A stretch of 64,000 bases of DNA. It comes from Streptomyces fagopyri (GTDB taxonomy: Bacteria > Actinomycetota > Actinomycetes > Streptomycetales > Streptomycetaceae). The stretch covers positions 7,688,001 through 7,752,000 of the forward strand of contig NZ_CP045643.1 of assembly GCF_009498275.1 (NCBI RefSeq). The letters are read 5' to 3'. This document shows, in pieces, positions 10,760-61,550 of the stretch. Within the stretch, counting starts at the first letter, position 1; each line of letters starts with the position of its first letter. The notes beneath the pieces were generated by a model. It was not told the DNA's origin and made no database searches. It saw only the letters and a list, made by a program, of their open reading frames with translations. The translations under genes and the position numbers were made by a program.

Positions 10760-10881
10760 CCCGGCCGGGTGGTGAGCGCCGCCCCCATCCCCGGCCGTGG
10801 TGGTGACTGTCGCTCTCGGCCCGGGCTGTGGTGGTGAGCGCCGTCCTCACCCCGGCCGTGGACGTGAGTACCGTCCTCAGC
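10760..10881. repeat. four degenerate ~30-bp repeats overlapping the VWA gene stop codon
   Basis: Units of the type CCCGGCCGTGGTGGTGAGCG followed by CCGTCCTCAC begin near 10760, 10790, 10821 and 10852. The last unit contains the stop codon (TCA at 10877-10879 on the plus strand) of the minus-strand VWA gene. Confidence 0.8.
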
Positions 10882-12646
10882 CCCGGCTGAGGGCGGCCGC
10901 ACGCACGATGGCCCTGAGGATCACCGAGTGGATCTGTGAGGGGTCGCTGACCTCCTGGCCCGAGCCGCCGGTCGCCTTGGCGATCTCCTCGACCTCCGCC
11001 TTGTCGGCGTCCGGGCCCACCGCGATGGCGATGAGCGGCACCGGGTGCTGCGGGTCGGCGAGCTGCCGCAGCCGGGAGACGAGATCGGCGCGCGAGATGC
11101 TTCCCGGGTCCTCGTTGACGCCGTCGGTCAGCAGGACCAGTGCGTTGAACCTGCCCTTCGCGTAACCGGAGGTGGCCGCCTCGTACGCGGCGAGGGTGGT
11201 GTCGTACAGGCCTGTCGCCCCGTTCGGCACGGGCTTCAGGCCGTTGAAGGCGGCCGCCAGTCTCGCCCGCTGGGCGTTGCCCCCCTCGCGGTCGCCGAGC
11301 CGCTGTGTGGGCACGAGCACCCGGTAGTCGCGGTCGCCGTCGAGACGGGTGGAGAACTTCCACAGCCCGATCTCGTCCTCCGTGGTGAAGGTGGCGAGCG
11401 CCTGGAGCAGGGCCGCCTTGGTGACGTCCATACGGGTCCGGTCGGTGCCCGGCACCGGCTGCGCCATGGACGCGGACGCGTCGACGACGGCGGTGATCCG
11501 GGCGCTCTGCACGGTGATCGTCCACGTGCCGAGCGTCTCTTCGACCGCCTTCTCCGGGAGCGGTTCGGCCGCGGTTCGGTCGAAGGGCTGCGGGGCGCGG
11601 CCGCCGGCCTTGGCGACCAGCGCGCCGGACACCTCGTCGTCGTCCGTGCGGAACCCGTGCCGCTGAAGGACGCGCTGCCCCGCCGACTCGCCCGAGAGCG
11701 TCATGAAGCGCAGCGCGGCCCGGCTCTCGTCGGTGCTCAGCCGCGGCCGGTCGACGAGGGTGAAGGGGTAGTCGAGCCGCGGTGATCCGTCCTTGGGATA
11801 GAACAGTTCGAGCCCGAGCCCGCGGTCGGACGACGAGTTGTGGACGAACGCCGCCTGTTCGGAGAGGAACAGCGCCTGGTTGCGCTTCGGGTCGGTCTGT
11901 TCGGCACCGGAGGAGTCTCGGGGGAGGGTGTCCAGCACCTGGTGGTCGTTGTCGGACGTGCGTGGCGAGAGGTTCTTGGCCAGGGCCGCGGCCCGGATGC
12001 CACCGCTCCTGGTCCCGTCCGTGGCGCCGCCGAGCCGGGTCAGCGCGAGCAGGCCGGTCGCGCTGTGCGCCGGGTCGGCCGCGCCCAGCCTGAGCCGGTC
12101 GTCCCGCGTCGAGGCGTCGGCCAGTTCGCTCCAGGTGTACGTCTTGGCGGGCCACCCGAGCGACCGGGCGGCGGACGGCACCATCGCGACACCGACCGGC
12201 GAGGACGCGACGTTCCCCGCCTTGGTGACCTGGATGGCCCGGCTTCGCGCGGCGACCCCGTCCACCCACACGTCGGAGTCCGGCACCCACGCCTGGACGC
12301 CGGCACTCCTGCCCGACCCGAGTGAGGCGGCGACCTGGTACGACTCGCGGGCGGTCACGGTGACGTCGATGCAGTGCCCGTCGGACGTGATGTCGCGCTC
12401 GCGGGCCTGGTCGGCGACCTCTCGCAGGGCGGGCGCGACGTCGGGCGACGCGGCGACGGTGATGCGCACGGCGCTGTCCTGGCAGGACGAACCGAAGGAG
12501 AACAGGCCGCCGCCGATCGCGGCCGCCCCGCCCACGGCGACCACCAGCACCAGCACCGTCGCGACGGCCACCGTGCGGCGGCGCGGGCGCGGACGGGGGT
12601 CGGCCGCACCCGCCCCGGACCGGTGGGGCAAGCTGTGACGTCCCAT
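10877..12646 (-). CDS. secreted substrate-binding and von Willebrand factor A domain protein
   Basis: This 589-aa protein has a basic N-terminus and a signal anchor (TVAVATVLVLVVAVGGAAAI, residues 24-43). An extracellular solute-binding-like region of about 300 residues follows (VRITVAASPDVAPALREV, QAWVPDSDVWVDGV). The C-terminal VWA domain has an intact metal-ion adhesion site, DASASM near residue 396, and LLTDGVNED later. VWA domains bind protein partners through a divalent metal. The fusion suggests surface sensing or assembly of a ligand-dependent complex, but no transporter genes are adjacent. GTG or ATG choice at 12646 is supported by the signal sequence; the ribosome site is weak. Confidence 0.85.
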   Translation of the reverse strand: MGRHSLPHRSGAGAADPRPRPRRRTVAVATVLVLVVAVGGAAAIGGGLFSFGSSCQDSAVRITVAASPDVAPALREVADQARERDITSDGHCIDVTVTARESYQVAASLGSGRSAGVQAWVPDSDVWVDGVAARSRAIQVTKAGNVASSPVGVAMVPSAARSLGWPAKTYTWSELADASTRDDRLRLGAADPAHSATGLLALTRLGGATDGTRSGGIRAAALAKNLSPRTSDNDHQVLDTLPRDSSGAEQTDPKRNQALFLSEQAAFVHNSSSDRGLGLELFYPKDGSPRLDYPFTLVDRPRLSTDESRAALRFMTLSGESAGQRVLQRHGFRTDDDEVSGALVAKAGGRAPQPFDRTAAEPLPEKAVEETLGTWTITVQSARITAVVDASASMAQPVPGTDRTRMDVTKAALLQALATFTTEDEIGLWKFSTRLDGDRDYRVLVPTQRLGDREGGNAQRARLAAAFNGLKPVPNGATGLYDTTLAAYEAATSGYAKGRFNALVLLTDGVNEDPGSISRADLVSRLRQLADPQHPVPLIAIAVGPDADKAEVEEIAKATGGSGQEVSDPSQIHSVILRAIVRAAALSRG

Positions 12647-12841
12647 GACGGTGGTGCCCTCCGTGGGTGAGCCGGTGCCGCGCGACAGTCGTATGAGAGC
12701 CGGGGGAGGGCGAGAGGGGGAGGCACGCCCGTACGGCGTCCGTCCCCCAACGGCCTGTCGCGCACGATCTTCGCAACTTCTTTCGAGACCCTAGCGGGGC
12801 GAAGATGGGGATGAGGCGGGATTACTCAACTGGAGGCGGGA

Positions 12842-13642
12842 GTGCAGGTGGAGGCGGGGTCGCCGGCCGGTTCTTTTCCTGGGGAGCGGCTGACGCGAAG
12901 GATTTTCCGGGACGAGACACTGCTCGTCCTCGGGCTCTCGCTCGGTGCGAGCGGAGTGTCCGCGCTGATCAGCTTTGTCGGATCGGTCACCAAACCGGGT
13001 GGTCTCAAGGACCAGGCGGCCACGCTGAACGCGTCGGCCGCGCCGGGCAGGCCCTGGCTGGACCTGGCGTGGCAGCTGTTCGGAATCGCGTCGGCCCTGG
13101 TGCCGGTCGCGCTGGTCGCGCATCTTCTGCTGCGGGAGGGCCAGGGGCTGCGCGTGATCGGGTTCGACCGCACGCGGCCCTGGCCCGACCTCGGACGCGG
13201 GGCCGCCGTCGCGGCGGTGATCGGCAGTACGGGCATCGCCTTCTATCTGCTGGCACGCGGGTTCGGCGCCAACCTCACGGTCGTGCCGGAGGCGCTGCCC
13301 GACGTGTGGTGGAAGTACCCGGTGCTGATTCTCTCGGCCGTGCAGAACGCCGTGCTGGAAGAGGTCATCGTCGTCGGCTATCTGCTGCGCCGGCTGGGCC
13401 AGTTGGGCTGGACGCCGGGCACCGCCCTGGTGGCGAGCGCGGTGCTGCGCGGTTCCTACCACCTGTACCAGGGCATCGGCGGCTTCGTCGGCAACATGGT
13501 GATGGGCGTGGTCTTCGTCTACCTGTACCGGCGGTGGGGCCGGGTCGGTCCCCTCGTGGTCGCGCACTCGCTGCTCGACATCGGGGCGTTCGTCGGGTAC
13601 GCGCTGTTGGCGGGGAAGGTCGGGTGGCTGCCCACGGCGTGA
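12842..13642 (+). CDS. CPBP-family intramembrane protease
   Basis: The 266-aa product is a polytopic membrane protein with about seven or eight hydrophobic segments. It has the CPBP (CAAX protease/bacteriocin-processing) motifs: LEEVIVVGYLLRRL near residue 177, RGSYHLYQG near 203, and VAHSLLDIG near 240. The two glutamates and the later histidines are the expected metal ligands, although the usual EExxxR is spaced by one extra residue. The GTG start follows GGAGGCGGG. Substrate is unknown. Confidence 0.88.
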   Translation: MQVEAGSPAGSFPGERLTRRIFRDETLLVLGLSLGASGVSALISFVGSVTKPGGLKDQAATLNASAAPGRPWLDLAWQLFGIASALVPVALVAHLLLREGQGLRVIGFDRTRPWPDLGRGAAVAAVIGSTGIAFYLLARGFGANLTVVPEALPDVWWKYPVLILSAVQNAVLEEVIVVGYLLRRLGQLGWTPGTALVASAVLRGSYHLYQGIGGFVGNMVMGVVFVYLYRRWGRVGPLVVAHSLLDIGAFVGYALLAGKVGWLPTA

Positions 13643-13735
13643 ACCGCGCGCCGATGCGCGTCGTGGTGCGCCGCGGTGTGTCATGGTGCGTCATGGTGCG
13701 CCGTGATGTGTCGTGGCCGCCTCGTCCGTACGCCG

Positions 13736-14551
13736 TCACACGAGCAGTTCGCCCTCGACGACCGTGACCGCGCCGCCGGTCAGGAGGGTACGGTCGCCGC
13801 GCAGGCCGGTGCGGACGAGGCCGGAGCGCGGGGAGGCCTGCAGGCCCGTCAGGTCGGGGCGGCCGAGACGCTCGGACCAGTAGGGCGCGAGGGCCGTGTG
13901 GGCGCTGCCGGTGACGGGGTCCTCGTCGATGCCGATGTTCGGGAAGAAACACCGCGAGACGAAGTCGTAGCCCCGGGCGGGGTCCGCTGAGCGGGCCGTC
14001 GCGATGATGCCGCGCTCGGAGTACCGGGCCAGGGCCCCGAGGTCGGGAGCCAGTCCGCGCACCGTCTCCTCGTCGGCGACCTCGATCAGCAGGTCTCCGG
14101 TGTTCGGGCCCGTGTCGAAGGCCGTGAGCGGTTCGGCGCCGAGCGCCTCCGCGACACCGTCCGGTACGTCGACCGGGGTCAGCGGCGCGGTCGGGAAGTC
14201 CAGCGTGATGGTGCCGTCCTCCCGGGGCGTGGCGCGGAGCACGCCGCTGCGGGTGGCGAACCGGACCGGTCCCGTGCGGGTGCCCGTCGTGCGCAGGACG
14301 TGGGCGGTGGCCAGTGTCGCGTGCCCGCACATCGCGACCTCGCTGGTGGGAGTGAACCAGCGCAGTGCCCAGTCCGCGTCACCGCCGTCGGGCAGGGGGT
14401 GCGCGAACGCCGTCTCGGCGTGATTGACCTCCAGAGCCACGTTCCGCAGCCAGTCGTCCTCGGGGAAGCCGTCGGGGCCCAGGAGGAGGACCCCGGCCGG
14501 GTTGCCGGTGAAGGGGCGGTCGGTGAAGGCGTCGACGATTCGAATCCGCAT
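13736..14551 (-). CDS. PhzF-family isomerase-like protein
   Basis: The 271-aa protein matches the PhzF/YddE epimerase-isomerase fold. It has RIVDAFTDRPFTGNPAGV at the N-terminus, the catalytic glutamate in NHAETAF (residue 46), and the conserved DEDPVTGSAH region near 215. PhzF catalyses isomerisation in phenazine synthesis, but most PhzF-like proteins in Streptomyces are unlinked to phenazines and no phz genes are present. The start is an ATG with a weak upstream site. It stands alone. Confidence 0.88.
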   Translation of the reverse strand: MRIRIVDAFTDRPFTGNPAGVLLLGPDGFPEDDWLRNVALEVNHAETAFAHPLPDGGDADWALRWFTPTSEVAMCGHATLATAHVLRTTGTRTGPVRFATRSGVLRATPREDGTITLDFPTAPLTPVDVPDGVAEALGAEPLTAFDTGPNTGDLLIEVADEETVRGLAPDLGALARYSERGIIATARSADPARGYDFVSRCFFPNIGIDEDPVTGSAHTALAPYWSERLGRPDLTGLQASPRSGLVRTGLRGDRTLLTGGAVTVVEGELLV

Positions 14552-14815: not shown

Positions 14816-14877
14816 AGGCCTTTCCCCGGCGGCCCTTGACCGTGGCCCATCTTCGAGGGTTGTCAAGCGATCGGTTC

Positions 14878-18313: not shown

Positions 18314-18341
18314 TGCCGGATCACCGGATCACCGGATCACC
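18314..18341. repeat. CCGGATCA octamer repeat containing the PPOX stop codon
   Basis: CCGGATCA occurs three times in tandem from about 18316, and the TCA of the third copy (18337-18339) is the stop codon of the minus-strand PPOX gene. Confidence 0.85.
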
Positions 18342-19026
18342 GGGCCGTCAGGTAGCCGGGCAGCCGGATGCCGGGGGCTAGGTCGTCGGCGGGGATCGGG
18401 GTGCCCTGTCCCTTGGTGACGGGGACCACGCCGGTCCAGTGGGGGAGGTCCAGGTCCTCGGGGTCGTCGTTCGGGCCGCCGGTGCGGAGCTTCGCCGAGA
18501 CCTCGTCCAGGTCGAGGGCGATCACCGCGGTGGCGGCCAGTTCCTTGGCGTTGGCCGCGCGGGAGTCGGACGAGCGGCCGGGAACGACCTGGTCGACCAG
18601 TGCGTCCAGGGCCGCGCGCTTCTCGTCCGGGTCCGTCACCTGGTGCGCGACGCCGTGCACCACCACGGAGCGGTAGTTGATCGAGTGGTGGAAGGCGGAC
18701 CGGGCGAGGACCAGGCCGTCGACATGGGTGACGGTCACGCAGACCGGCAGCCCGGGGTCGGTCCCGCCGGTCATCCGCAGGGGTCGCGAGCCCGTCGAGC
18801 CGTGCACGTAGAGGCGTCGGCCGACCCGTGCGTAGAGGGTGGGCAGCACGACCGGCGCGCCGTCCCGGACGAAGCCGAGGTGGCAGACGTACCCCTCGTC
18901 GAGTATCGCGTGGACCAGTTCGTGGTCGTACGCGGCGCGCTCCTTGGAGCGGGTGGGGACGGTGCGGTCGGTCGGGGTGTAGGCGGCGGCCCGCGCCGTC
19001 CCTGGCTCTGTGCTCGTCTCCGGCAT
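18337..19026 (-). CDS. pyridoxamine 5'-phosphate oxidase family protein
   Basis: The 229-aa protein has the split-barrel flavin-binding fold of PPOX proteins: HELVHAILDEGYVCHLGFV, GAPVVLPTLYARVGRRLYVH, and FHHSINYRSVVVHG. It is divergent from a MocR-type regulator, 35 bp away, an arrangement typical of MocR targets. ATG at 19026 was chosen over 19038 because a minus-strand -10 (TACAAT) overlaps the upper ATG. The stop codon lies inside three CCGGATCA repeats at 18315-18340. It may act on a vitamin B6-like or F420/FMN-linked substrate. Confidence 0.85.
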   Translation of the reverse strand: MPETSTEPGTARAAAYTPTDRTVPTRSKERAAYDHELVHAILDEGYVCHLGFVRDGAPVVLPTLYARVGRRLYVHGSTGSRPLRMTGGTDPGLPVCVTVTHVDGLVLARSAFHHSINYRSVVVHGVAHQVTDPDEKRAALDALVDQVVPGRSSDSRAANAKELAATAVIALDLDEVSAKLRTGGPNDDPEDLDLPHWTGVVPVTKGQGTPIPADDLAPGIRLPGYLTAR

Positions 19027-21507: not shown

Positions 21508-22410
21508 ATGTTGAATCTGGAGCGCCTGCGCACCCTCGACGCCCTGGCCCGGCACGGATCGGTGAGCGGGGCGGCCGAAGGGCTGCATGTGACGACCTCG
21601 GCCGTGTCCCAGCAGATGTCCAAGCTGGAACGCGAGGTGGGCCAGCAGCTCCTCGCCAAGAACGGACGGGGGGTGCGGCTGACGGACGCGGGCCGGCTCC
21701 TCGCCGACCACGCGGCGCGCATCCTCTCGCAGGTCGAACTCGCCCAGTCCGACCTGGAGGCGCAGCGCGGACAGGTCGTCGGCGAGCTGCGCCTCTCGGC
21801 GTTCCCGACCGCCGCACGCGGGCTGTTCCCCACGGCGCTCGCGGCCCTGCGCGCCGACCATCCGGGGCTGCGGGTGCGCTCGTGCGAGCTGGAGCCCGAG
21901 GCCGGGGTCGCCGGAGTGGTGCGCGGTGACCTCGACCTGGCGGTGGTGCTCGACTGGTACAACAGGCCGATGCCGTTGCCCGACGGCCTGGTGAAGGCGG
22001 CGATCCTCGACGACCCGGCCGATGTGGCGATGCCGGTCGGCCACCGGCTCGCGGACCGCGCGGAGGTCGACCTGGCGGAGTTCGCCGAGGACGAGTGGAT
22101 CACCTGGGGTGAGGGCGAGTTCTGCCACGAGTGGCTGATGTTCACGCTGCGCTCCAAGGGCGTCGAGCCGCACGTCGGCCATCGCGCCGCCGAGACGCAC
22201 ACCCAGCTCAGCATGGTCGCCGCGGGGCTCGGCGTCTGTATCGCGCCGGTGCTCGGACGCCGCCCGATGGCGGAGGGGGTCGTCACGGTCCCGCTGCGCC
22301 AGCGCGTACAGCGCCATGTGTACGTCGTCTGGCGGGCGGACGCCGACCGCCGCCCGTCGATCAGGGCGGCGGTGGAGGCACTGCGGGCGGCCGGAGAAGG
22401 TGTCCACTGA
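21508..22410 (+). CDS. LysR-family transcriptional regulator
   Basis: The 300-aa protein has the LysR helix-turn-helix at residues 3-60 (LERLRTLDALARHGSVSGAA, TTSAVSQQMSKLEREVGQQL). A periplasmic-binding-protein-like effector domain runs from about 90 to 290. It is divergent from the EamA transporter, so it probably responds to the exported or toxic compound. The ATG is leaderless by position. Its stop codon begins a CTGACGGAC tandem repeat. Confidence 0.92.
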   Translation: MLNLERLRTLDALARHGSVSGAAEGLHVTTSAVSQQMSKLEREVGQQLLAKNGRGVRLTDAGRLLADHAARILSQVELAQSDLEAQRGQVVGELRLSAFPTAARGLFPTALAALRADHPGLRVRSCELEPEAGVAGVVRGDLDLAVVLDWYNRPMPLPDGLVKAAILDDPADVAMPVGHRLADRAEVDLAEFAEDEWITWGEGEFCHEWLMFTLRSKGVEPHVGHRAAETHTQLSMVAAGLGVCIAPVLGRRPMAEGVVTVPLRQRVQRHVYVVWRADADRRPSIRAAVEALRAAGEGVH

Positions 22411-22515
22411 CGGACCTGACGGACCTCAGGGACCTGGCGGACCTGCCTGGCGGACCTGACCAACCTGATCGACCCGAGTGATCCGACCGACTCGACCGAC
22501 TCGACCGACCTGGCC
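22407..22515 (+). repeat. 9-bp tandem repeats starting at the LysR stop codon
   Basis: CTGACGGAC at 22407 contains the TGA stop, followed by CTGACGGAC (22416), CTCAGGGAC (22425) and CTGGCGGAC (22434), then further degenerate copies. CGACTCGAC repeats follow around 22490-22515. Confidence 0.85.
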
Positions 22516-22578
22516 GACTGGTGTGGCATCGGGTCGATCGATGTGCGCCGGCCGGACCCGCGTGACACCGGCCCGCTC

Positions 22579-24641: not shown

Positions 24642-25435
24642 CCCGCGCCGGCCTCGTCTCCGCGCGCGTGAGCACCGGGCAGCTGGCGGACGTCGTCGCC
24701 CTGGTGGACGACGGCCAGTGGGACCTGCCGTCCGCCTGTGCGGGCTGGCGCGTCATCGACGTGATCGCCCACTTGGGGGCCCTCGCCCACGAGGCCGTCG
24801 AACCCCCCGCCCCGGACCCCAGCCTGCCGGCGAACCGCGAGCGTTACCACGACCTGCGGGTCGACGAGCGTCGGGCCTGGAGCCACGCCGAGGTCGTCGA
24901 CGAGTGGCGCGCGTTCACCCCGAGGCAGCTGGAGATCCTGGAGGCGGCCCAGGAGCCGCCGCGGTCCGGGCAGCCGGTAGAGGTGCCGGGCCTGGGGACC
25001 TACCCGCGACATCTCCTGGCGAACACCATGGCGTTCAACGTCCTGTGTCACCTCCGCCACGACATGCTTGCCCCGGACGGTCCGCTCCCGTTCGCCGTCC
25101 CCGAAGAGACCGACGCCCTGGTCGCACCCGCGGTCGAGTTCATGCTGGCCGGCCTGCCCCAGATGCAGGGGCCCGAACTCGCCGCCACCGTCGCCCAACC
25201 GCTCGTCCTCGACCTGACCGGACCGGGCGCCACCACCGTCACCGTTCTCCCCGCCACCCGGCAGGACGCACGCCTGACCGTGCGGCCAGGAGCCGGTGGC
25301 GCCACCAGGATCACCAGTACGGCATCCGACTTCATCGCGTGGGGCACCACCCGCGAACCCTGGCGCGACCACTGCCGCGTCACCGGAGACACATCCGCCG
25401 CGACGCCGTTCCTCGACCGCCTCGACATCATCTGA
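24638..25435 (+). CDS. mycothiol-dependent maleylpyruvate isomerase family protein
   Basis: The 265-aa protein has the MDMPI/DinB-like helical N-domain with CAGWRVIDVIAHLGALAHEA near residue 40 and VLCHLRHDML near 145. The His residues are the expected metal ligands. A C-terminal SCP2-like domain follows (PLVLDLTGPGATTVTVLPA). Members use mycothiol, the actinobacterial thiol, in isomerisation or detoxification. The ATG at 24638 has AGGA upstream, and it overlaps a short upstream ORF. The stop codon lies in a 25-bp repeat. Confidence 0.82.
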   Translation: MTRAGLVSARVSTGQLADVVALVDDGQWDLPSACAGWRVIDVIAHLGALAHEAVEPPAPDPSLPANRERYHDLRVDERRAWSHAEVVDEWRAFTPRQLEILEAAQEPPRSGQPVEVPGLGTYPRHLLANTMAFNVLCHLRHDMLAPDGPLPFAVPEETDALVAPAVEFMLAGLPQMQGPELAATVAQPLVLDLTGPGATTVTVLPATRQDARLTVRPGAGGATRITSTASDFIAWGTTREPWRDHCRVTGDTSAATPFLDRLDII

Positions 25436-25510
25436 GCACGCACCGCGCAGACCGGGATGAGCACGCACCGCGCAGACCCTGACGTGCACCGAGCAGACCT
25501 GGACGTGCAC
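25433..25510 (+). repeat. ~25-bp tandem repeat starting at a stop codon
   Basis: TGAGCACGCACCGCGCAGAC occurs at 25433 (containing the gene stop) and 25458, followed by diverged copies GTGCACCGAGCAGACC and GTGCACACCG. Confidence 0.85.
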
Positions 25511-27055: not shown

Positions 27056-27583
27056 ATGATCAAACCCTATGGTCCGTACGACTTCATGCCGCCGATCAGG
27101 ACCTTCTCGCTGACCTCGGAGTCAGTGGTCGACGGTGGCCCACTGGCCGCCGCGCAGGTGAGCGGCATTCTGGGGGCGGGTGGTTCGGACATCTCGCCGC
27201 AGCTGAGCTGGTCCGGCTTTCCCGAGGAGACGCGAAGTTTCACGGTCGCGATGTTCGATCCCGACGTGCCCACCGCCTCCGGCTTCTGGCACTGGGCCGT
27301 CGCCAACCTGCCCGCCTCCGTGACCGGCCTTCCGGCCGGGGCGGGAGACGGTGGTGATCTGCCCGGCGGCGCGGTGACGCTGTCGAACGACGCCGGTTAC
27401 CGGAGGTACCTCGGTCCGGCGACGCCGCCCGGCAACGGCCCGGACCGCTACTTCCTCGTGGTCCACGCCGTCGACGTCGAAGAACTGGAGGTGTCGGAGG
27501 CGACGACCCCGGCCCTCATGGACTTCCTGCTGTTCACGCACGCCCTCGCGCGGGCGACCATGTTCGGCACCGCCGAGCGCTGA
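27056..27583 (+). CDS. YbhB/YbcL-type PEBP (Raf-kinase-inhibitor-like) protein
   Basis: The 175-aa protein fits the phosphatidylethanolamine-binding protein family: [26 protein letters not shown] (residues about 45-70), [12 protein letters not shown], and [19 protein letters not shown]. The fold binds phosphate- or carboxylate-containing ligands. No bacterial role is established. ATG at 27056 follows GAGGGA at 5 nt. The last codons and stop are duplicated immediately downstream. Confidence 0.9.
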
Positions 27584-27611
27584 GCGGGTTCGGCACCGCC
27601 GAGCGGTGAGG
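27564..27611 (+). repeat. duplication of the PEBP gene 3' end including the stop codon
   Basis: TTCGGCACCGCCGAGCGCTG at 27562 onward (with the TGA stop at 27581-27583) recurs as TTCGGCACCGCCGAGCGGTG starting near 27589, with one base difference. Confidence 0.85.
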
Positions 27612-32882: not shown

Positions 32883-32942
32883 GGGGTCTGCTCGTACGGG
32901 GTCTGCTCGTACGGGGTCTGCTCGTACGGGGTCTGCTCGTAC
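32883..32942 (+). repeat. four perfect 15-bp tandem repeats (GGGGTCTGCTCGTAC)
   Basis: Copies at 32883, 32898, 32913 and 32928 are identical. A shorter GGGACCCTC-type repeat follows at about 32975-33010. Both lie in the gap between the TPR-like gene and the convergent lipoprotein gene. Confidence 0.92.
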
Positions 32943-33069
32943 GGGTGTGTTCGGAGCCCGCGGAACCCTCGGAGCTTTCGGGACCCTCAGGACCCTCGGG
33001 ACCCTCAGAGCCTCCGGAACCCCACGAACGACCGCAACCCCGGGGGCCCGAGGCGGGGCGTCGGGCTGG

Positions 33070-40341: not shown

Positions 40342-41082
40342 ATGACACGCCCGGTCACTGTGGTCACGGGCGGCAGTCGGGGGATCGGCGCCGCGATGTG
40401 CGCCCGCCTGGCGGCGGACGGACACGACGTGGTGGTGGGCTACGTGCGTGACGGCGCTGCCGCGGACTCGACCGCGGCAGCCGTCCGCGCCGCGGGTGCG
40501 CGCTGTGTCACGGTACGGGTGGACACCTCGGACGCGGACGACGTGGAGCGGCTCTTCGACACGGCGGCGGACCGTCTCGGGCCCGTCACCGGGCTGGTGA
40601 ACAACGCCGGTGTGACGGGTCCGCTCGGGCGGCTCGCGGACACCGACCCCGCCGACCTGCGGCACGTGGTGGACGTCAACCTGCTGGGCACGCTGCTGTG
40701 TTCGCGGCGGGCCGCCCGGTCCATGGCGGCCTGGGGGAGCGGTGTCATCGTGAACGTGTCCTCGGCCGCGGCGACGCTCGGCAGCCCTGGCGAGTTCGTC
40801 CACTACGCGGCCACGAAGGCCGCGGTCGACGCCCTGACGCTGGGCCTCGCGAAGGAACTCGGCCCGGACGGCATCCGGGTCAACGCGGTCGCGCCCGGCA
40901 TGATCGACACCGAGATGCACGCGGCGATGGGCGACCCGGGCCGCGCCGAGCGCGCCGCCTCCTCGATTCCGCTGCGCCGCGTCGGCCGGGCGGAGGAAGT
41001 CGCCGCCGCCGTCTCGTGGTTGATGTCGCCCGACGCGTCGTACGCCACGGGGGCCGTGCTGCGGGTGTCGGGAGGCCGCTGA
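40342..41082 (+). CDS. short-chain dehydrogenase/reductase
   Basis: The 246-aa classical SDR has TGGSRGIGAAMCARL at residues 9-22, NNAGV near 87, VNVSSAAA, and catalytic YAATKAAVD near 150. ATG follows AGGAGA. It stands alone. The TGA stop lies in a GGGAGGCCG-type repeat. Confidence 0.9.
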   Translation: MTRPVTVVTGGSRGIGAAMCARLAADGHDVVVGYVRDGAAADSTAAAVRAAGARCVTVRVDTSDADDVERLFDTAADRLGPVTGLVNNAGVTGPLGRLADTDPADLRHVVDVNLLGTLLCSRRAARSMAAWGSGVIVNVSSAAATLGSPGEFVHYAATKAAVDALTLGLAKELGPDGIRVNAVAPGMIDTEMHAAMGDPGRAERAASSIPLRRVGRAEEVAAAVSWLMSPDASYATGAVLRVSGGR

Positions 41083-41165
41083 GCCGGTGGCGGGCGCGGC
41101 GCGCGAGGTGGTGTGGGCGCGGGGAGGCCGGTGAGCCTGCGGCGGGCGCGTGGTGGTGCGGGGTT
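41070..41165 (+). repeat. ~50-bp duplication including the SDR stop codon
   Basis: GGAGGCCGCTGAGCCGGTGG (with TGA at 41080-41082) is repeated as GGAGGCCGGTGAGCCTGCGG near 41120, each followed by GCGGGCGCG and GTGGTG elements. Confidence 0.75.
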
Positions 41166-43612: not shown

Positions 43613-44782
43613 ATGCGTGACGCCGTGATCGTCGAAGCCGTCCGTACGCCCGTCGGCAAGGGCAAACCGAACGGTTCTCTCGCCCATGTCCATCCGGTGG
43701 AGCTCCTCGCGCACACCCTGCGCGCCCTCGTCGAGCGCTCCGGGGTCGACCCGGCGCTGATCGACGACGTCATCGGCGGCACGGTCACCCAGGTCGGGGA
43801 ACAGGCCGCGAACCTCACCCGGTACGCGGTGCTCTCGGCCGGCTTCCCGGAGACGGTGCCCGCGACCACCGTGGACCGTCAGTGCGGCTCCTCCCAGCAG
43901 GCCGTGCACTTCGCGGCGCAGGGCGTCATGTCGGGGGCGTACGACATCGCGGTGGCCTGTGGTGTGGAGTCCATGAGCCGTGTGCCGATGGGGTCGAACG
44001 TCCTCGGTACCGAGGGCCCGTTCGGCCCCGGGATCGCCGAGCGCTACCCCGAGGGCCTGGTGCCGCAGGGCATCAGTGCCGAACTGATCAACGCGAAGTG
44101 GGGCCTGTCGCGCGAGCAGTTGGACACGTACGCGGTGGGTTCGCACCAGAAGGCTGCCGCGGCCTGGGACGAGGGCCGCTTCGACGCCGAGGTCGCGCCT
44201 CTCCAGGGGGTGGCACGCGACGAGAGCGTCCGCCCCGCCAGTACCACGGAGACCCTCGCCGGGCTCAAGCCCGCCTACTACCACCCGGCCTTCGCCGAGC
44301 GCTTCCCGCAGATCGACTGGTCCGTCACGGCGGGCAACGCGAGCCCCATCAACGACGGCGCGTCGGCCGTGCTCATCATGTCGAGCGAGACCGCGGCCCG
44401 CCTCGGCCTGCGCCCGCTGGCGCGTCTGCACAGCTTCGCCGTCACCGGCTCCGACCCCCTGCTGATGCTCACGGGCGTCATCCCGGCCACCGAGAAGGTG
44501 CTCCGCAGGGCCGGGCTCTCACTCGGTGACATCGACCTCTTCGAGGTCAACGAGGCCTTCGCGAGCGTCGTCCTGGCCTGGCAGCAGGAGACGGGCGCCG
44601 ACCTCTCCCGGGTCAACGTGCACGGCGGGGCGATCGCGCTCGGCCACCCGCTCGGCGCGAGCGGCACCCGGCTGACGACCACCCTCGTGCACGCCCTGCG
44701 CGCCCGCGGAGCCCGCTACGGACTCCAGACGATGTGTGAGGCGGGCGGGCTCGCCAACGCGATGATCCTGGAAGCGGTGTAG
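43613..44782 (+). CDS. acetyl-CoA C-acyltransferase (thiolase)
   Basis: The 389-aa thiolase has the nucleophile Cys in TVDRQCGSSQQAVHF (about residue 90), then VNEAFASV, GGAIALGHPLGASG with the catalytic His near 345, and the second Cys in MCEAGGLANAM. It cleaves or condenses acyl-CoA in fatty acid metabolism. Regulation by the divergent HxlR gene, perhaps redox- or aldehyde-sensitive, is inferred. Its stop lies in a 10-bp repeat. Confidence 0.93.
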   Translation: MRDAVIVEAVRTPVGKGKPNGSLAHVHPVELLAHTLRALVERSGVDPALIDDVIGGTVTQVGEQAANLTRYAVLSAGFPETVPATTVDRQCGSSQQAVHFAAQGVMSGAYDIAVACGVESMSRVPMGSNVLGTEGPFGPGIAERYPEGLVPQGISAELINAKWGLSREQLDTYAVGSHQKAAAAWDEGRFDAEVAPLQGVARDESVRPASTTETLAGLKPAYYHPAFAERFPQIDWSVTAGNASPINDGASAVLIMSSETAARLGLRPLARLHSFAVTGSDPLLMLTGVIPATEKVLRRAGLSLGDIDLFEVNEAFASVVLAWQQETGADLSRVNVHGGAIALGHPLGASGTRLTTTLVHALRARGARYGLQTMCEAGGLANAMILEAV

Positions 44783-44820
44783 TTCGGTGTAGTTCGGTGT
44801 AGTCCGGTGTAGTCCGGTGT
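44779..44820 (+). repeat. 10-bp tandem repeat TGTAGTYCGG containing the thiolase stop codon
   Basis: Four copies run from 44779, the first holding the TAG stop at 44780-44782. Copies one and two have TT, three and four have TC. Confidence 0.9.
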
Positions 44821-44880
44821 GGCGCGGATGGGTGGCGCGCCCGGCGGGTACGGGTCCTGGGTTCCGTTCCGTGGTGTTCG

Positions 44881-44990
44881 GTGGTGCTCGTGCGGGTTCC
44901 GGAGCCCGTGGTGCCGGGTGGTGCTCGTGCGGGTTCCGGAGCCCGAGGTGCCGGGTGGTGCTCGTGCGGGTCCAGGGTTCCGTTCCGGGG
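44881..44990. repeat. three 37-bp tandem repeats
   Basis: GGTGGTGCTCGTGCGGGTTC occurs at 44881, 44918 and (with a one-base deletion in the third unit) 44955, each followed by CGGAGCCCGTGGTGCCG or close variants. Confidence 0.9.
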
Positions 44991-46627: not shown

Positions 46628-47809
46628 ATGCCCAAGACGGCTTACGTGCGGACCAAGCCGCACCTGAACATCGGCACCATGGGTCATGTCGACCACGGCA
46701 AGACCACCCTGACCGCCGCCATCACCAAGGTTCTCGCCGAGCGCGGTTCCGGCACGTTCGTGCCCTTCGACCGCATCGACCGCGCCCCGGAGGAGGCCGC
46801 GCGCGGCATCACCATCAACATCGCGCACGTCGAGTACGAGACCGACACCCGCCACTACGCGCATGTCGACATGCCGGGTCACGCCGACTACGTCAAGAAC
46901 ATGGTCACCGGCGCGGCGCAGCTCGACGGGGCGATCCTCGTCGTCTCCGCGCTCGACGGGATCATGCCGCAGACCGCCGAGCACGTGCTGCTCGCCCGGC
47001 AGGTGGGCGTCGACCACATCGTCGTCGCCCTGAACAAGGCCGACGCCGTCGACGACGGCGAGGACACCGTGCTCACCGACCTCGTGGAGCTGGAGGTCCG
47101 CGAACTGCTCTCCGCGCACGGATACGGAGGCGAGTCCGTCCCCGTCGTCCGGGTGTCCGGCCTCAGGGCGCTGGAGGGCGACCCCCGCTGGACCGCGGCG
47201 ATCGACGCGCTGCTCGACGCGGTGGACACCTATGTGCCGATGCCCGAGCGGTACGTCGACGCGCCGTTCCTGCTGCCGGTCGAGAACGTGCTCACCATCA
47301 CCGGGCGCGGGATCGTCGTCACGGGAGCCGTCGAGCGCGGCACGATCCGGGTCGGCGACCGCGTCGAAGTGCTCGGCGCCGCCGTCGACACGGTGGTCAC
47401 GGGACTGGAGACCTTCGGCAAGCCCATGGCGGAGGCGCAGGCCGGGGACAACGTGGCGCTGCTGCTGCGCGGCGTGCCCCGGGACGCCGTACGGCGCGGG
47501 CACATCGTCGCCGCGCCCGGCAGCGTCGTGCCCAGCCGGCGTTTCTCGGCGCGGGTGTACGTCCTGTCGTCGGGCGAGGGCGGACGGACGACGCCGGTCG
47601 CCACCGGGTACCGGCCGCAGTTCTACATCCGTACCGCGGACGTGGTCGGCGACGTCGACCTCGGCGAGCGGGCGGTCGCCCGGCCCGGCGACACCGTCAC
47701 GATGAGGGTGGAGCTGGGACGCGAGGTGCCGCTGGAGCCGGGCCTGGGATTCGCGATCCGCGAGGGCGGCCGGACGGTCGGCGCGGGGACGGTGACCTCG
47801 GTCGACTGA
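46628..47809 (+). CDS. tuf3: elongation factor Tu, divergent EF-Tu3 type
   Basis: The 393-aa protein is an EF-Tu paralogue. Switch and nucleotide motifs are intact: GHVDHGKTT (P-loop), [26 protein letters not shown] (usual DCPGHADYIKNM), and NKAD. It is slightly shorter than standard EF-Tu and diverges in domains II and III ([38 protein letters not shown]). From published work on S. ramocissimus, EF-Tu3 resists kirromycin-type inhibitors, and Streptomyces tuf3 is stringent-response linked. That applies here by analogy. RBS is weak (GAGGTAC near 46617). Confidence 0.95.
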
Positions 47810-47864: not shown

Positions 47865-47908
47865 CGCTGCCGCTGCCGCTGCCGCTGCCGCTGCCGCTGC
47901 CGCTGCCG
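47865..47908 (+). repeat. about seven copies of the hexamer GCTGCC
   Basis: A (GCTGCC)n tract directly after the tuf3 terminator. The rest of 47810-48232 is GC-rich without a gene. Confidence 0.9.
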
Positions 47909-48232
47909 GTGTCGCAGCCTGTGCCCGCGCGCGTGCCGCAGTTGGGTCGGGGGTGGACCGGCGCGCGGTCGGTCGTGGATGGTCCGACGAGGGGATCGGC
48001 AGGAGGTCGGTCGGCGGCCCGGGTCTGCTCGGTGCCGCATCGACAGGCCGTCCGCCGTGGGGGGACCGGCCGGTCCACCGGCAGGCGGCCCGGTCGCGGG
48101 TCGGTCGGCGGGGCGCCCGGATGTGCCGTGGGGCCGGGACGGGGGCCGGGTCCCGGGGGCGCGCCGTCGTGTGGCGTCGGCCGTGGCCGGGCACCGGGCC
48201 GTGGGCGCACGCCGGGGCGGCACAATGGACGG
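47909..48232. other. gene-free GC-rich spacer
   Basis: No gene supported. CACAAT at 48221-48226 is a candidate -10 for the gene that follows. Confidence 0.45.
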
Positions 48233-52128: not shown

Positions 52129-52276
52129 GCGGACCACCCGCCATGGCGGACGGCCCCCTCCGGTACCGGGCCGGGCGGCGGGTCCGTCCGCCGTTCCGCC
52201 GTCTGACGTTCTGACGCCCGTCGTCCGTCGTCCGTCGTCCTGCCGTGCTGCCCGTGCTGCCGTGCTGTCCTCCCCC

Positions 52277-52360
52277 CGTTCGCCGTTCGCCGTTCGCCGT
52301 TCGCCGTTCGCCGTTCGCCGTTCGCCGTTCGCCGTTCGCCGTTCGCCGTTCGCCGTTCGC
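52277..52360 (+). repeat. 12 perfect copies of a 7-bp unit (CGTTCGC)
   Basis: Twelve identical tandem heptamers between the thioesterase and cyanase genes, followed by an imperfect copy. All six frames stay open through it, producing spurious long ORFs. It is a highly unstable-looking microsatellite. Confidence 0.97.
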
Positions 52361-52422
52361 CGTTCCGCCGGGCGCGACGCGTCCGCTCGCGACCCCGCGG
52401 TGTCGGCGGACACCCCGCGCCA

Positions 52423-55248: not shown

Positions 55249-55255
55249 CCCGGCC

Positions 55256-55385
55256 CCGAACCGTCGTGAGCGTGACGGTCGCGGCTCAACCGTCGTGACC
55301 GTCACCGGGTCGGTTCGTCGCGAGCGTCACCGGGTCGACCCGTGGTGAGCGTGACCGTCCCGGCTCAACCCGTCGCGAGCATGAC
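55256..55385. repeat. degenerate ~25-30-bp repeats containing the EamA stop codon
   Basis: CCGTCGTGAGCGTGACGGTC at 55261 is followed by four variants, the last overlapping the C-terminal codons and TCA stop (55365-55367) of the minus-strand EamA gene. Confidence 0.8.
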
Positions 55386-56222
55386 CGTGCCGATCAGTGC
55401 CAGGCCCGCGCCCGCCGCCTGGACGCCGCGCAGCCGTTCGCTGAGGAAGCCGCGGGCGGCCAGGGCCGTGACCACCGGGTAGAGCGAGGCGAGCACGGCG
55501 GCCACCGTCACCGGGCCGAGGTGGGCGGCGACGGAGTACGTGCCGTTGGCCGCCACGTCGGCGAGCCCGACGAAGGCGAACGACGGGAGCGCCCGCCAGG
55601 GGAAGCCGTCGCCGGGGAGCCCCGCGGAGCCGCGCCGCACCGAGGCCCACAACGCGGTGCCGCCGGCGACCACGTTGGTCACGCGCTGCACGAACAGGGC
55701 GAGGAACAGCCCCGTGACCGACGAGGACGCCTCCGCGATCAGGACGAACACCGTGCCGAAGCCCAGCGCGGCGAGCAGCGTCAGCAGGATCGCCTGCCGC
55801 TGCACGGGGGCGCCCCTGAACTGCGGGCCGCCCGCGAGGACCACACCGGCGACGGCGACCGCGATGCCCGCGAACTGCAGCGGCCCGGGACGCTCGCCGA
55901 GGACGAGTCCGACGGTGAGCGGGACAGCGACCCCCAGGGAGCCGAGCGGCGAGACCACACCCATCGGCCCCAGGGCGAGGGCCTTGTAGAACGAGAAGAG
56001 TGCGACCGGTCCCACCAGGCCGGCCGCGACCGCGAACCACAGGCGCGGTCCCGCCTCGCCCCAGGCGCCGGTCGCGACCACGATCACGCCGAGGACGGCC
56101 GCGGCGACCGCCTGGGAGACGACGACCACGGTGAGGGCGGGCGTCCGCCGGGTCAGCAGGCCTCCGCCGAAGTCGGCCAGGCCCCACAGGAGGCTGGTGG
56201 CCAGGGCGAAGAGCGCTGTCAT
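55365..56222 (-). CDS. EamA-family transporter
   Basis: The 285-aa protein has ten membrane helices in two EamA repeats (FALATSLLWGLADFGGGLLT at the start and AAVLASLYPVVTALAARGFL near 235). It is divergent from an XRE-cupin regulator, with paired dyads between them, so the regulator probably controls it. Substrate unknown. Confidence 0.88.
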   Translation of the reverse strand: MTALFALATSLLWGLADFGGGLLTRRTPALTVVVVSQAVAAAVLGVIVVATGAWGEAGPRLWFAVAAGLVGPVALFSFYKALALGPMGVVSPLGSLGVAVPLTVGLVLGERPGPLQFAGIAVAVAGVVLAGGPQFRGAPVQRQAILLTLLAALGFGTVFVLIAEASSSVTGLFLALFVQRVTNVVAGGTALWASVRRGSAGLPGDGFPWRALPSFAFVGLADVAANGTYSVAAHLGPVTVAAVLASLYPVVTALAARGFLSERLRGVQAAGAGLALIGTVMLATG

Positions 56223-57489: not shown

Positions 57490-57548
57490 CCGGCCCGTCG
57501 CGGGTCGACCGCTTGCCCTGGTCGGCGCACGCTCAGGAGGATGACGTC

Positions 57549-58397: not shown

Positions 58398-58407
58398 CGA
58401 GCGAGGG

Positions 58408-58430
58408 TCCTGCCGGGTGACCCGGCGGGA
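58408..58430. terminator. bidirectional hairpin between hydrolase and GNAT genes
   Basis: TCC-T-GCCGGGT-G-ACCCGGC-G-GGA forms an imperfect stem in the 33-bp convergent gap. Confidence 0.65.
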
Positions 58431-58871
58431 TCAGGCCAGCCGCAGGTCGATCCACTCCGCGGTGTCGCCCGGCAGCACGTAGCGCTCGGTCTCGGCGAAC
58501 CCGTGCTTCAGGGCGAAGCGCAGCCCGTCCTCGTTCGAGGCGAGGACGACCGTCTCGATCACCGCGGCGCCCAGCGCCCGCGCCTGCTCCAGTCCGCGCT
58601 CGTACAACTCCTCGCCGAATCCCCGGCCGCGGTGCTCGGGCAGCACCCGGGCGATCACCGTGGCCGTCGAGGTGTCCTCCTTCGGCGGGCGCACGGTCGT
58701 GCAGCCCACCAGCACGTCACCGAGGTGGACGACCTCCAGGAGGTTGCGGCCGGCCCGCTCCCGGACCTCGTCGAGCGACATGGCGGCGGGAGGGACGATC
58801 ACGTTGTGGACGTGACGCCAGGCTTCGAGGGCGGGTTCGTCGACCGGCCGCCGGAAGAGAAGAGTGGGCAC
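58431..58871 (-). CDS. GNAT-family N-acetyltransferase
   Basis: The 146-aa protein has the acetyl-CoA loop ARVLPEHRGRGFGEELY near residue 85 and VVLASNEDGLRFALKHGF near 118. The start is uncertain: GTG at 58871, or TTG at 58907 inside an inverted repeat. No ribosome site is clear. Substrate unknown. Confidence 0.85.
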   Translation of the reverse strand: MPTLLFRRPVDEPALEAWRHVHNVIVPPAAMSLDEVRERAGRNLLEVVHLGDVLVGCTTVRPPKEDTSTATVIARVLPEHRGRGFGEELYERGLEQARALGAAVIETVVLASNEDGLRFALKHGFAETERYVLPGDTAEWIDLRLA

Positions 58872-58878
58872 CGCAGCA

Positions 58879-58917
58879 GCAAACCCGGCCGCCGCGCGCG
58901 TCGTCAACCGGGTTTGC
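58879..58917. terminator. inverted repeat between CoA-binding and GNAT genes
   Basis: GCAAACCCGG and CCGGGTTTGC (perfect 10 bp) flank 19 nt. On the minus strand it follows the CoA-binding stop (58945), so it may be its terminator or a mRNA boundary. Confidence 0.55.
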
Positions 58918-58944
58918 CGGAAGGGTCCGGGACGGCGGGGCCGG

Positions 58945-59352
58945 TCAGCCGAGGCGGGGGATCTCTATGGCGGGGCAGCGGTCCATGACCATGTCGAGCC
59001 CGGCGGCGCGGGTACGGTCGTACGCGGCCTCGTCGACGACGCCGAGCTGGAACCAGACGGCCTCGGCCCCGATCGCGACGGCCTCGTCGGCCACGGTCCC
59101 GGCGAGGTCGCTGTTGACGAAGACGTCGACGACATCGACGTCGAACGGGATCGCGTCGAGCGAGGGATAGCCCTTCTCGCCGTGGACGGTCTCGGCCTTC
59201 GGGTGCACGGGGACGATCCGCTTGCCGTGACGCCGCAGGACGTCGGCGACTCCGTACGCCGCGCGCCCCTCGTTCGACGAGAGGCCGACGATCGCCCAGG
59301 TGTCGCCGAGTTCGTTCAGGATCCTGCGGATGGTCGCCTGGTCGCCGTACAC
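58945..59352 (-). CDS. CoA-binding domain protein (YccU-like)
   Basis: The 135-aa protein has the CoA-binding Rossmann fold: WAIVGLSSNEGRAAYGVADV near residue 20, VDVVDVFVNSDLAG, and VWFQLGVVDEAAYDRTRAAG. GTG at 59352 follows AGGAGGA; the upstream frame lacks a ribosome site. Role unknown. Confidence 0.88.
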   Translation of the reverse strand: MYGDQATIRRILNELGDTWAIVGLSSNEGRAAYGVADVLRRHGKRIVPVHPKAETVHGEKGYPSLDAIPFDVDVVDVFVNSDLAGTVADEAVAIGAEAVWFQLGVVDEAAYDRTRAAGLDMVMDRCPAIEIPRLG

Positions 59353-59496
59353 GGTCGTCCTCCTGGGGTGCCTGCCGTCGAATGTCCTCGCTGTCCAGCG
59401 GGAGAACAGCGGACGGCGCACGGTGATTCCCCCGGCCCGCCGGGGAGCGCGCGGGGGCCCGGCCGTGAGGGCGGGGTACCGGGCAGCGCCGGGGAA

Positions 59497-60366
59497 TCAG
59501 GCGCGGTCCGCCGCCGCGTCCAGCAGGGTCATCGCGTCGTACCCGGGCGTGCCGCGCTCGGCGTAGTAGGCGACCAGCCGGTGGCCGGCGGTGTCGTCGA
59601 GGTGCATGGACTGGTAGCCGAGGGTCAGGTCGCCGACCTCCGGATGGTGGAACGTCCTGTGGCCGTGGGAGCGCAGCCGTACGTCGTAGTGGTCCCACAG
59701 GCGGGCGAAATCGGGGCTCTTCAGGAGGAGTTCGTCGACCAGTTCGGCCAGGTCGGGGGCGTCCGGGTCGGTGCCGGCGAGCGCGCGCATCCGGCCGACG
59801 CAGGCGCGGACCTGCTCGTCCCAGTCGTCGAACAGCGAGGGCGCGTCCGGGTACAGGAAGACGTAGCGCGCCACGTTGCGCCTGCGCACGGGCCACTCGT
59901 CCAGGCCGGCCAGGAGTCGCATCCCGCCCGGGTTGCAGGCGAGCACGTCCGATGTACGGCTGACCACGTGTGCCGGGTTGGGCCGCAGGTTCTCCAGGAG
60001 CAGCCTGACGCCGGGCCGCACGGACCGGGTGGGTGTCGCCGGTGCCTCGCGCGCGCCGCCGGCGGCGCGCGCGACGAGGTCACGCAGATGCTCGTGCTCC
60101 TGCGCGTCCAGCCGGAGGGCACCGGCGAGGGCGTCCACGACCGCGGGGCCGGGACGGTTCTCCCGGCCGCGCTCCAGCCGCGTGTAGTACTCGATGCTCA
60201 CCCCGGCGAGCATGGCCAGCTCCTCGCGGCGCAGTCCGGGCGCGCGGCGCAGGGCGGGGCCGATCCTGAGCCCGGCCTCCTCCGGGGACACATGGGCGCG
60301 GCGGGCGCGCAGGAAGCTCCCCAGATCCGTGCCGCCGCCGCTGCCGTTCTGCCGCTCGCGTGCCAT
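59497..60366 (-). CDS. XRE-family regulator with MmyB-like C-terminal domain
   Basis: The 289-aa protein has an HTH at residues 14-80 (LGSFLRARRAHVSPEEAGLR, GVSIEYYTRLERGRENRPGP). A PAS-like MmyB ligand domain follows (DVLACNPGGMRLLAGLDEWP; NVARYVFLYPDAPSLFDDWD). CACACT lies 7 nt before the ATG at 60366; GTG at 60372 is an alternative. It is divergent from an SDR gene that it may control. Confidence 0.9.
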   Translation of the reverse strand: MARERQNGSGGGTDLGSFLRARRAHVSPEEAGLRIGPALRRAPGLRREELAMLAGVSIEYYTRLERGRENRPGPAVVDALAGALRLDAQEHEHLRDLVARAAGGAREAPATPTRSVRPGVRLLLENLRPNPAHVVSRTSDVLACNPGGMRLLAGLDEWPVRRRNVARYVFLYPDAPSLFDDWDEQVRACVGRMRALAGTDPDAPDLAELVDELLLKSPDFARLWDHYDVRLRSHGHRTFHHPEVGDLTLGYQSMHLDDTAGHRLVAYYAERGTPGYDAMTLLDAAADRA

Positions 60367-60696
60367 GGGCACCAGTGTGGCAGCCCTGTGACCTGCGGGG
60401 CCGGAGAGTGAGGGGCCGTGTCACGCCCCGAACACTCTTCCCCGGACGGGGCGGTCTGCCGGGATGCGGGTGGGGACGGCAGGCGGGAAGCTCGGTGAGG
60501 GTGCCCCCGTGGAAGCCGACGCGGGCCGCGGTCCAGCCGCCCTCCGCGGACGGGGCGGGCGCAGCCGGAACGCCGGCTCCGCTTCGTACCCCTGCTCGGA
60601 TTCACGCACCTCCTCCGGCACATGCTCCGGCACCTCCTGCGACTTGTACGCTCGCCCGGATTCGTACGCCCGCCCCGAAACCACCCGAGGAAGACC
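60367..60696. other. divergent intergenic region
   Basis: No gene seen. TACGCTCGCCCGGATTCGTA and related direct repeats near 60645-60675 precede the SDR gene. The region presumably holds both promoters. Confidence 0.45.
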
Positions 60697-61362
60697 ATGA
60701 CCACCATCGCCATCGTCGGAGCCGGACCCGGCCTCGGAGCCGCGGTCGCGCGGCGGTTCGGCCGCGCGGGATTCGACGTCGCCCTCATCTCGCGCGACGC
60801 GGACCGGACGCGCGCGTTCGCGGCCGAGCTGGCCGGCGAGGGGCTGACGGCGAGCGGATTCGCCGCCGACGTCCGCGACCCGGCCGCCCTGGGGGCGGCT
60901 CTCGACGCCGCCACCGCGACACTGGGGCCCATCGAGGTCCTGCAGTACAGCCCGGTCCCGCACCGGGACTTCATGCGACCCGTCCTGGAGACCGACGCCG
61001 CCGACCTCGTGGGCCCGATCGAGTTCTCGGTGTACGGTCCCGTCGTCGCCGTGCGTCACGTGCTGCCCGGCATGCGGGAACTCGGCCGGGGGACCGTGCT
61101 CCTCGTCAACGGCGGCACCGCCGCGATTCCGCACACCGAGCGCGCCGGAACGTCCATCGCCTTCGCCGCCGAGAGCGCCTACGGCCATCTGCTGCACGAG
61201 GCGCTCGCCCCCGACGGCATCCACGTCGCCCAGTTCGTCATCCCCGGCGCGATCGTCCCCGGGCACCCGAGGAAGGACCCCGACGCCCTGGCGGACGCCC
61301 TGTGGACCATCCACCGGGACCGGCACGGGTACCGGCACTTCGCCGACGACCTCGACGCCTGA
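60697..61362 (+). CDS. atypical SDR-fold protein
   Basis: The 221-aa protein has the nucleotide motif IVGAGPGLGAAVARRFG at the start. It lacks the usual NNAG (LQYSPVPH instead), Ser (VNGGTAAIP) and YxxxK (SAYGHLLHEA, with His at the Lys position). It may be a non-catalytic or altered NAD(P)-binding protein. ATG follows GAGGAAG. Its GACGCC-TGA end is duplicated as GACGCC-CTG just downstream. Control by the divergent HTH regulator is inferred. Confidence 0.82.
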   Translation: MTTIAIVGAGPGLGAAVARRFGRAGFDVALISRDADRTRAFAAELAGEGLTASGFAADVRDPAALGAALDAATATLGPIEVLQYSPVPHRDFMRPVLETDAADLVGPIEFSVYGPVVAVRHVLPGMRELGRGTVLLVNGGTAAIPHTERAGTSIAFAAESAYGHLLHEALAPDGIHVAQFVIPGAIVPGHPRKDPDALADALWTIHRDRHGYRHFADDLDA

Positions 61363-61550
61363 CCCGACGCCCTGCCGGCCGGCGGTCACGCGTGACCGGC
61401 AGGCCGGTGGCACCGCCGTCCACCGTCGCCCACGGCCGCCCTCCGTCGTCCACCGCCGTCCTCCCGATCGGCCCGGCGGTCGGCGGGCCGACTGTCCGGA
61501 ATGGTGGCCGCCTTCCTGCGCCCGGCCCCCGGGCCGCCTACGCTCACCTC

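Follow-up and report, generated by a model that had tools for sequence, protein, structure and literature searches.

Why do so many genes in one stretch of the Streptomyces fagopyri chromosome appear to end inside a short tandem repeat? The window analyzed here is the whole 64,000-bp stretch at bases 7,688,001 to 7,752,000 of a single-contig genome of 8.88 Mb. A first-pass annotation of its sequence listed nine genes whose stop codons fall within or at the start of such repeats, judged this bias to be stronger than random slippage would produce, and offered two explanations, a process by which genes are extended at their 3' ends or relaxed selection immediately after the stop. Our analysis supports the second explanation. 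With a probability of about 0.83, the arrays are neutral short tandem duplications that have been purged from coding and start regions, and the stop codon would simply mark the edge of the territory in which they survive.

Repeats at nine stop codons

The nine stop codons were found at the positions first reported, in genes whose names are backed by Pfam, and the repeats around them are as follows.

10760..10887, minus strand: about four degenerate copies of an approximately 31-bp unit across the stop (10877-10879) of an SBP/VWA gene (Tandem Repeats Finder [TRF], Pfam)
18316..18343, minus strand: 3.5 perfect copies of an 8-bp unit across the stop (18337-18339) of a Pyridox_ox_2 (PPOX) gene
22407..22519, plus strand: decaying 9-bp-based array starting at the stop (22408-22410) of a LysR gene
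25433..25510, plus strand: 25-bp/21-bp array starting at the stop of an MDMPI_N-domain gene
27562..27610, plus strand: 26-bp duplication containing the final codons and stop of a PEBP gene
41056..41150, plus strand: two copies of about 43 bp with 52 bp between them, the first across the stop (41080-41082) of an SDR gene
44775..44820, plus strand: 4.6 copies of a 10-bp unit from the last codons of a thiolase gene on, with its TAG repeated
55290..55392, minus strand: degenerate 25- to 30-bp array resembling copies of the 3' coding end of an EamA gene
61348..61371, plus strand: about two copies of a 12-bp unit across the stop of an atypical SDR gene; weak

Each stop was scored by the best local direct repeat touching it, relative to 300 dinucleotide shuffles in which the coding and non-coding sides were shuffled separately. 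Eight of the nine stops (VWA, PPOX, LysR, MDMPI-like, PEBP, SDR, thiolase, and EamA) beat every shuffle, with scores of 18 to 35.5 (p = 0.003 each, the floor for 300 shuffles). The repeat at the atypical SDR stop was weak, its score of 12 equaling the shuffle maximum (p = 0.007), and this last member of the original list is the one that did not hold up well. The best shifts ranged from 8 to 79 bp, some of them probably multiples of a shorter unit. TRF reported an array at all but two of the nine stops; it missed the spaced pair at 41080 and the PEBP duplication, the latter of which was detected by the shift-match finder described below. The number of confirmed stops depends on the threshold, since a stricter tandem definition (score of at least 12, near-adjacent copies) retains six of the nine, PEBP included. 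Direct copies of a local unit thus stand side by side more often than chance allows, as expected for local tandem duplication of the minisatellite/VNTR type.

Placement of arrays around stops and starts

Placement was analyzed in a 1.664-Mb sample composed of the window and 80 pieces of 20 kb, 60 of them spread along the chromosome and 20 taken from 7.46 to 7.98 Mb. Genes (1,415 in total) were called with a codon model whose training set was the window plus the first 40 pieces. Arrays were collected with an ungapped shift-match finder (score of at least 12, period 6 to 120), which found none when the window was shuffled once. Among the 596 arrays, 250 lay within genes, 297 were intergenic, 46 crossed a stop, and 3 crossed a start; one of the 46 crosses a start as well, giving four start crossings in the placement test.

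Whether stops appear to be preferred depends on what they are compared with. Random placement anywhere in the genome predicted 25.5 ± 4.6 stop crossings, well below the 46 seen, and to this extent the proposed enrichment over shuffled positions is real. When random placement had to touch non-coding DNA, 51.6 ± 6.0 stop crossings were expected and the enrichment disappeared, while start crossings numbered 4 compared to 53.9 ± 5.9 expected. Enrichment at stops is therefore clear only against a null that is blind to coding constraint, and the claim of a bias beyond random slippage fails when the adjacent non-coding flank is the reference. This second null is generous, because it sets no limit on how far an array may extend into a gene. 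A stricter null, with uniform placement in each gap behind a gene and an overlap of one unit allowed, predicted 36.9 stop crossings where 45 were seen (p = 0.07). Subtracting growth by other arrays raised the expectation to 39.3 (p = 0.16), and excluding the window from this corrected test left 39 crossings versus 35.3 expected (p = 0.26). Across these several nulls a process targeted to stop codons was rejected, apart from small residual excesses.

The distribution of array edges agrees with this result. Left edges were absent from −40 to −30 bp, rose through 0.65 and 1.31 to 2.05 per kb up to the stop, and then continued at 1.3 to 2.5 per kb to +200 bp with no peak, so that the density stays level between −10 and +200 bp. 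In an 864-kb subset, repeat coverage reached its maximum of about 9% at 50 to 100 bp behind the stop, compared to 3% in the 25 bp before the stop and less than 1% within 25 bp of starts. A best local repeat score of at least 12 was found at 10.9% of 1,331 stops, versus 15.5% of positions at +30 and 17.1% at both +60 and +100. Stop-crossing arrays were more frequent in the window (6 of 60 stops) than elsewhere in the sample (40 of 1,300; Fisher p = 0.013), a richness that is biased in that the window was chosen because the pattern had been noticed in it. Nor is it limited to stops, because the share of local repeats in the window exceeded that of the sample 2.3-fold at the stop and 2.5-, 2.0-, and 1.7-fold at +30, +60, and +100.

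The arrays reach only a short distance into genes, and they ignore reading frame. Of the 46 stop-crossing arrays, 41 extend at most 1.2 units into the gene, and for arrays with a reach of at most 1.0 unit the distances fit a uniform distribution (Kolmogorov-Smirnov p = 0.65). A limit of one unit is expected if the first copy must retain the stop. Periods were multiples of three in 244 of 250 arrays inside coding sequence, compared to only 15 of 46 arrays that crossed stops; with 9 of 21 stop-crossing arrays from related genomes added, the pooled figure was 24 of 67 (p = 0.70). Because these periods disregard frame, they do not suggest that selection has favored longer genes or backup stops in frame.

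A dispersed repeat family that inserts at stop codons could produce a similar picture. Mycobacterial interspersed repetitive units (MIRU) overlap both stop and start codons, and, like the present arrays, they place tandem units over stops. MIRU form a dispersed family of related sequences, whereas the copies here are local and unrelated from site to site. In the 1.66-Mb sample, 297 of 343 non-coding arrays had no match elsewhere; 46 did, and among the matches listed 20 of 25 involved periods of at most 12 bp. With no related unit sequence at many loci in the sample, and with unlike units at the same thiolase stop in different genomes (below), a MIRU-like family was rejected as practically untenable.

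The placement of the arrays can be explained as follows. Short tandem duplications, with units mostly of about 6 to 60 bp, would arise locally all over this genome, which is rich in GC; the most probable source is slippage during replication, or else unequal copying where short direct repeats occur. Within genes, nearly all surviving duplications would be those that keep the frame, and near start codons survival would be almost nil. From one unit before the stop onward, a duplication would keep the first copy of the stop and leave the protein intact; such a change at a gene end would persist because the protein is unchanged, and being neutral it would be retained. Continued slippage could then extend the array while point mutations erode it, and the apparent capture of stop codons would mark the left-hand border of a zone that is uniformly neutral. 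The data show where the arrays lie, that they ignore frame, and, as described below, that protein ends are conserved and arrays are lineage-specific; slippage as the mechanism, and neutrality itself, are inferred. Relaxed selection immediately after the stop, as first suggested, is supported by an even edge density, by the scarcity of arrays at starts, by the frame-free periods, and by the one-unit limit into genes.

Gene ends and gaps in related genomes

If neutral duplications accumulate behind genes, gaps between convergent genes would be expected to grow. Five syntenic 80-kb stretches from relatives, 85.7 to 88.1% identical to the window across the 24 to 46 kb that align, allowed 12 convergent gaps of the window to be compared, each in at least two relatives; the PPOX, MDMPI-like, PEBP, and atypical SDR gaps lie outside this comparison. 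Five gaps, each with a stop array, were 102 to 218 bp longer than the relatives' median, namely those of VWA, LysR, SDR, thiolase, and EamA, and the remaining seven differed from it by only −19 to +14 bp. For example, the VWA gap is 154 bp versus 45 to 113 bp in four relatives, the LysR gap is 168 bp versus 31 to 69 bp in four, the SDR gap is 276 bp versus 63 and 86 bp in two, and the EamA gap is 116 bp versus 1 to 49 bp in five. Local repeats made up from 28% (SDR) to 93% (EamA) of these five long gaps, compared to 1 to 8% in shuffles. The clearest case is the EamA gap, the content of which, by eye, resembles the conserved coding end of EamA in copies that are decaying. By eye, two relatives, G382 and G248, also have their own small duplications, located at the stop of the gene opposite EamA.

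Proteins did not lengthen along with the gaps. The idea that duplications shift the stop outward could draw on units that copy the last codons in several cases, and on the 5 of 46 stop-crossing arrays that reach more than 1.2 units into the gene. Among the seven of nine named genes with comparable orthologs in relatives, the C-terminus differed by 0 amino acids in six and by a median of +2 amino acids in VWA, and both the indifference of periods to frame and the short reach of the other 41 arrays argue against lengthening. The suggestion of a 3'-end-extending process accordingly finds no backing at the protein ends or in the periods, and we consider it highly improbable.

The thiolase stop could be followed across a wider set of genomes. 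A search of 392 genomes gave matches in 177, and 42 loci were compared, 39 from the same genus (this genome included) and 3 from another family. The gene after the thiolase, whatever its identity, was convergent in all 42. The gap between them ranged from −4 to 285 bp, the longest being the one described here. Arrays (score of at least 11) were present in this gap in 11 of 42 genomes and crossed the thiolase stop in 5, with five different units (periods of 10, 17, 21, 23, and 33; two of them weak, with scores of 12 and 13). At this orthologous site the presence of an array varies between lineages.

Such turnover bears on the alternative that the arrays are functional, as terminators, backup stops, or RNA-binding sites maintained by selection. 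Folding energies of 70 of the 343 non-coding arrays (a random draw, 35 to 140 bp) were slightly below those of shuffles, the only comparison made (mean z −0.98, 24% below −2), which is a weak shift in RNA structure. By eye, the unit of this genome was seen in no relative at six gaps and the thiolase gap, and second stops fall in frame at chance level, judged by period. The gap at 13643-13735 also argues against maintained function: by eye, a long terminator-like hairpin is found there in G224, G052, G382, and G248, and here it is not visible and a tandem array stands in its place. Selected function is thus very unlikely to explain the arrays. In G224, the gap syntenic to 13643-13735 also contains, by eye, about 130 bp of extra sequence with inverted ends near the stop of the next gene, absent from G052, which looks like a small mobile element.

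Several observations weigh against uniform neutral placement. The gene caller is simple and its starts are imprecise, and the array-bearing gap at 13643-13735 is not longer than in relatives (−11 bp relative to their median). Intergenic periods were multiples of three in 137 of 297 arrays, above one-third, with 26 of 55 in convergent gaps of at most 400 bp, perhaps reflecting missed coding sequence. At a score of at least 20, this genome had 27 stop crossings versus 18.1 expected (p = 0.013), and its convergent gaps alone had 18 versus 11.7 (p = 0.019). The window contributed 5 versus 1.2 to the former excess, leaving 22 versus 16.9 (p = 0.09) in the rest; with the growth correction the expectation was 19.8 (p = 0.04), or 22 crossings versus 18.5 expected when the window was excluded (p = 0.20). 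The relatives had 20 stop crossings at a score of at least 12, compared to 13.0 expected (p = 0.011) or 12.7 after growth correction (p = 0.008); a wider exclusion around starts raised the expectation to 15.6 (p = 0.08). Most of their excess lay in the stretches syntenic to the window (16 versus 10.1), with 4 versus 2.9 elsewhere (p = 0.31). Finally, summed over bins from −20 to +200 bp, edge density in convergent 3' flanks was about 1.8 times that in co-directional flanks.

These excesses leave room for a mutation process with a mild preference for gene ends or for the space between convergent genes, caused for instance by transcription collision or terminators. In its favor are the residual excess at stops in some subsets and the edge density of 1.9 to 3.1 per kb in convergent flanks versus 1.0 to 1.9 in co-directional flanks over the same bins. 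It would not readily account for the lack of an edge-density peak at the stop, and the excess is not significant once the window is left out or, in relatives, beyond the syntenic stretch. Either promoters or transcription collision may cause the difference between gap types, and constraint from promoters predicts the same difference. A process of this kind is therefore unlikely, while the counts are compatible with a stop preference of up to about 1.6-fold. The neutral-duplication reading, in which gaps between convergent genes would grow through such events, accommodates the placement, the frame, the protein ends, and the differences between lineages.

Other arrays, array load, and known repeat systems

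Six further arrays that had been placed in intergenic gaps were all confirmed by TRF, at 7895, 14735, 32883, 44869, 47865, and 52276. Four are detailed here.

32883..32945, no strand: 4.2 perfect copies of a 15-bp unit in a convergent gap
44869..44971, no strand: 2.8 copies of a 37-bp unit behind the thiolase gene, in the same 285-bp convergent gap
47865..47919, no strand: array of 6-bp units behind an EF-Tu-family gene, in a convergent gap
52276..52370, no strand: 7-bp-based array upstream of a cyanate lyase gene, within heptamer repeats spanning about 187 bp (52184-52370)

The EF-Tu-family gene (46628-47809, plus strand) encodes 393 amino acids with all three EF-Tu Pfam domains, and as called it is followed by a convergent gap of 1,230 bp, in which a gene may have been missed. 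The array upstream of cyanate lyase matched only itself genome-wide at an E value of at most 0.001, and changes in its copy number could alter expression. Long 15-bp-based repeats at 61848-62104 form a repetitive protein tail within a called gene (61551-62525) with no Pfam match. At gathering threshold, Rfam identified a single family in the window, unrelated to the arrays: a glycine riboswitch (RF00504, 69.4 bits) at 2229-2324 on the plus strand, upstream of a large called gene (2505-5390).

Array load may be elevated in this genome. The spread pieces contained 254 non-coding arrays in 222.5 kb of non-coding DNA, compared to 27 in 60.6 kb pooled from four genomes of the same genus (G009, G013, G005, and G052), a 2.6-fold ratio (p = 2e-7); per 100 kb, this is 114 arrays here versus 25 to 81 in those genomes. 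In syntenic stretches, the window and G224 each had 27 arrays; G052, 93% identical to G224, had 11 (p = 0.014), G382 and G248 had 8 each, and G279 had 6. The raised load is a lead rather than a result, because the gene model derives from this genome and the assemblies are of unequal quality. A missing repair gene was rejected as its cause for the three genes searched, with matches to NucS (PF01939), Ku (PF02735), and SbcD (TIGR00619) each in 9 of 9 genomes. Mutation-accumulation lines of S. ambofaciens yielded 9 indels of 1 to 4 bp in the wild type and 19 indels of 1 to 2 bp without NucS, and duplications of the present size range are not among the changes given in excerpts of that report (PMC11109965). 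A stronger version of events is unlikely: in this lineage, short tandem duplications might arise at a raised rate, which G224 would equal in the syntenic stretch and its close relative G052 would not, and might be rewriting the DNA behind genes and maybe replacing old terminators, with gene ends between converging genes mildly favored (up to about 1.6-fold), perhaps by transcription collision.

Repeats that cross stops are already known as a kind, and what is new is this instance and the quantified neutral zone; the comparisons that follow draw on excerpts of the cited reports. Borg tandem repeats (PMC9879509) are likewise lineage-specific, recent, and independently arisen, with genic units divisible by three, intergenic units mostly not, and some arrays starting inside a gene end; unlike the perfect, A-rich Borg units, those of the present arrays are rich in GC and in many cases decayed, and they sit on a bacterial chromosome. 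Similarly, among 88 variable-number tandem repeat loci of Yersinia pestis (PMC3689786), 10 cross stops and 6 cross starts, one of the latter being a CRISPR. Its authors reasoned that a gene may be less affected by variation at its stop, and the stop loci had low diversity; copy number was typed within one species there, while the present comparison is between species. TAACTGA heptamer arrays of Beggiatoaceae (PMC4679880) also cross the end of the upstream gene in 14 sets, but they share one heptamer and lie mostly just before starts, whereas the present units are mostly site-specific and avoid starts. The excerpted part of a 2025 survey found short tandem repeats not enriched on average in bacterial genomes. 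Titles and abstract openings in mostly non-subscription literature reported no stop-crossing arrays in Streptomyces.

For reading bacterial genomes, these results suggest that stop-crossing repeats should turn up in any place where duplication is neutral, since the stop is retained in the first copy, and that the proper null for such repeats is the adjacent non-coding flank rather than the whole genome. They also offer a concrete route by which gaps behind converging genes may grow, with copied coding ends supplying part of the added sequence. Should the raised load be confirmed, the genome would lend itself to studying what sets the rate of duplication in this group of bacteria.

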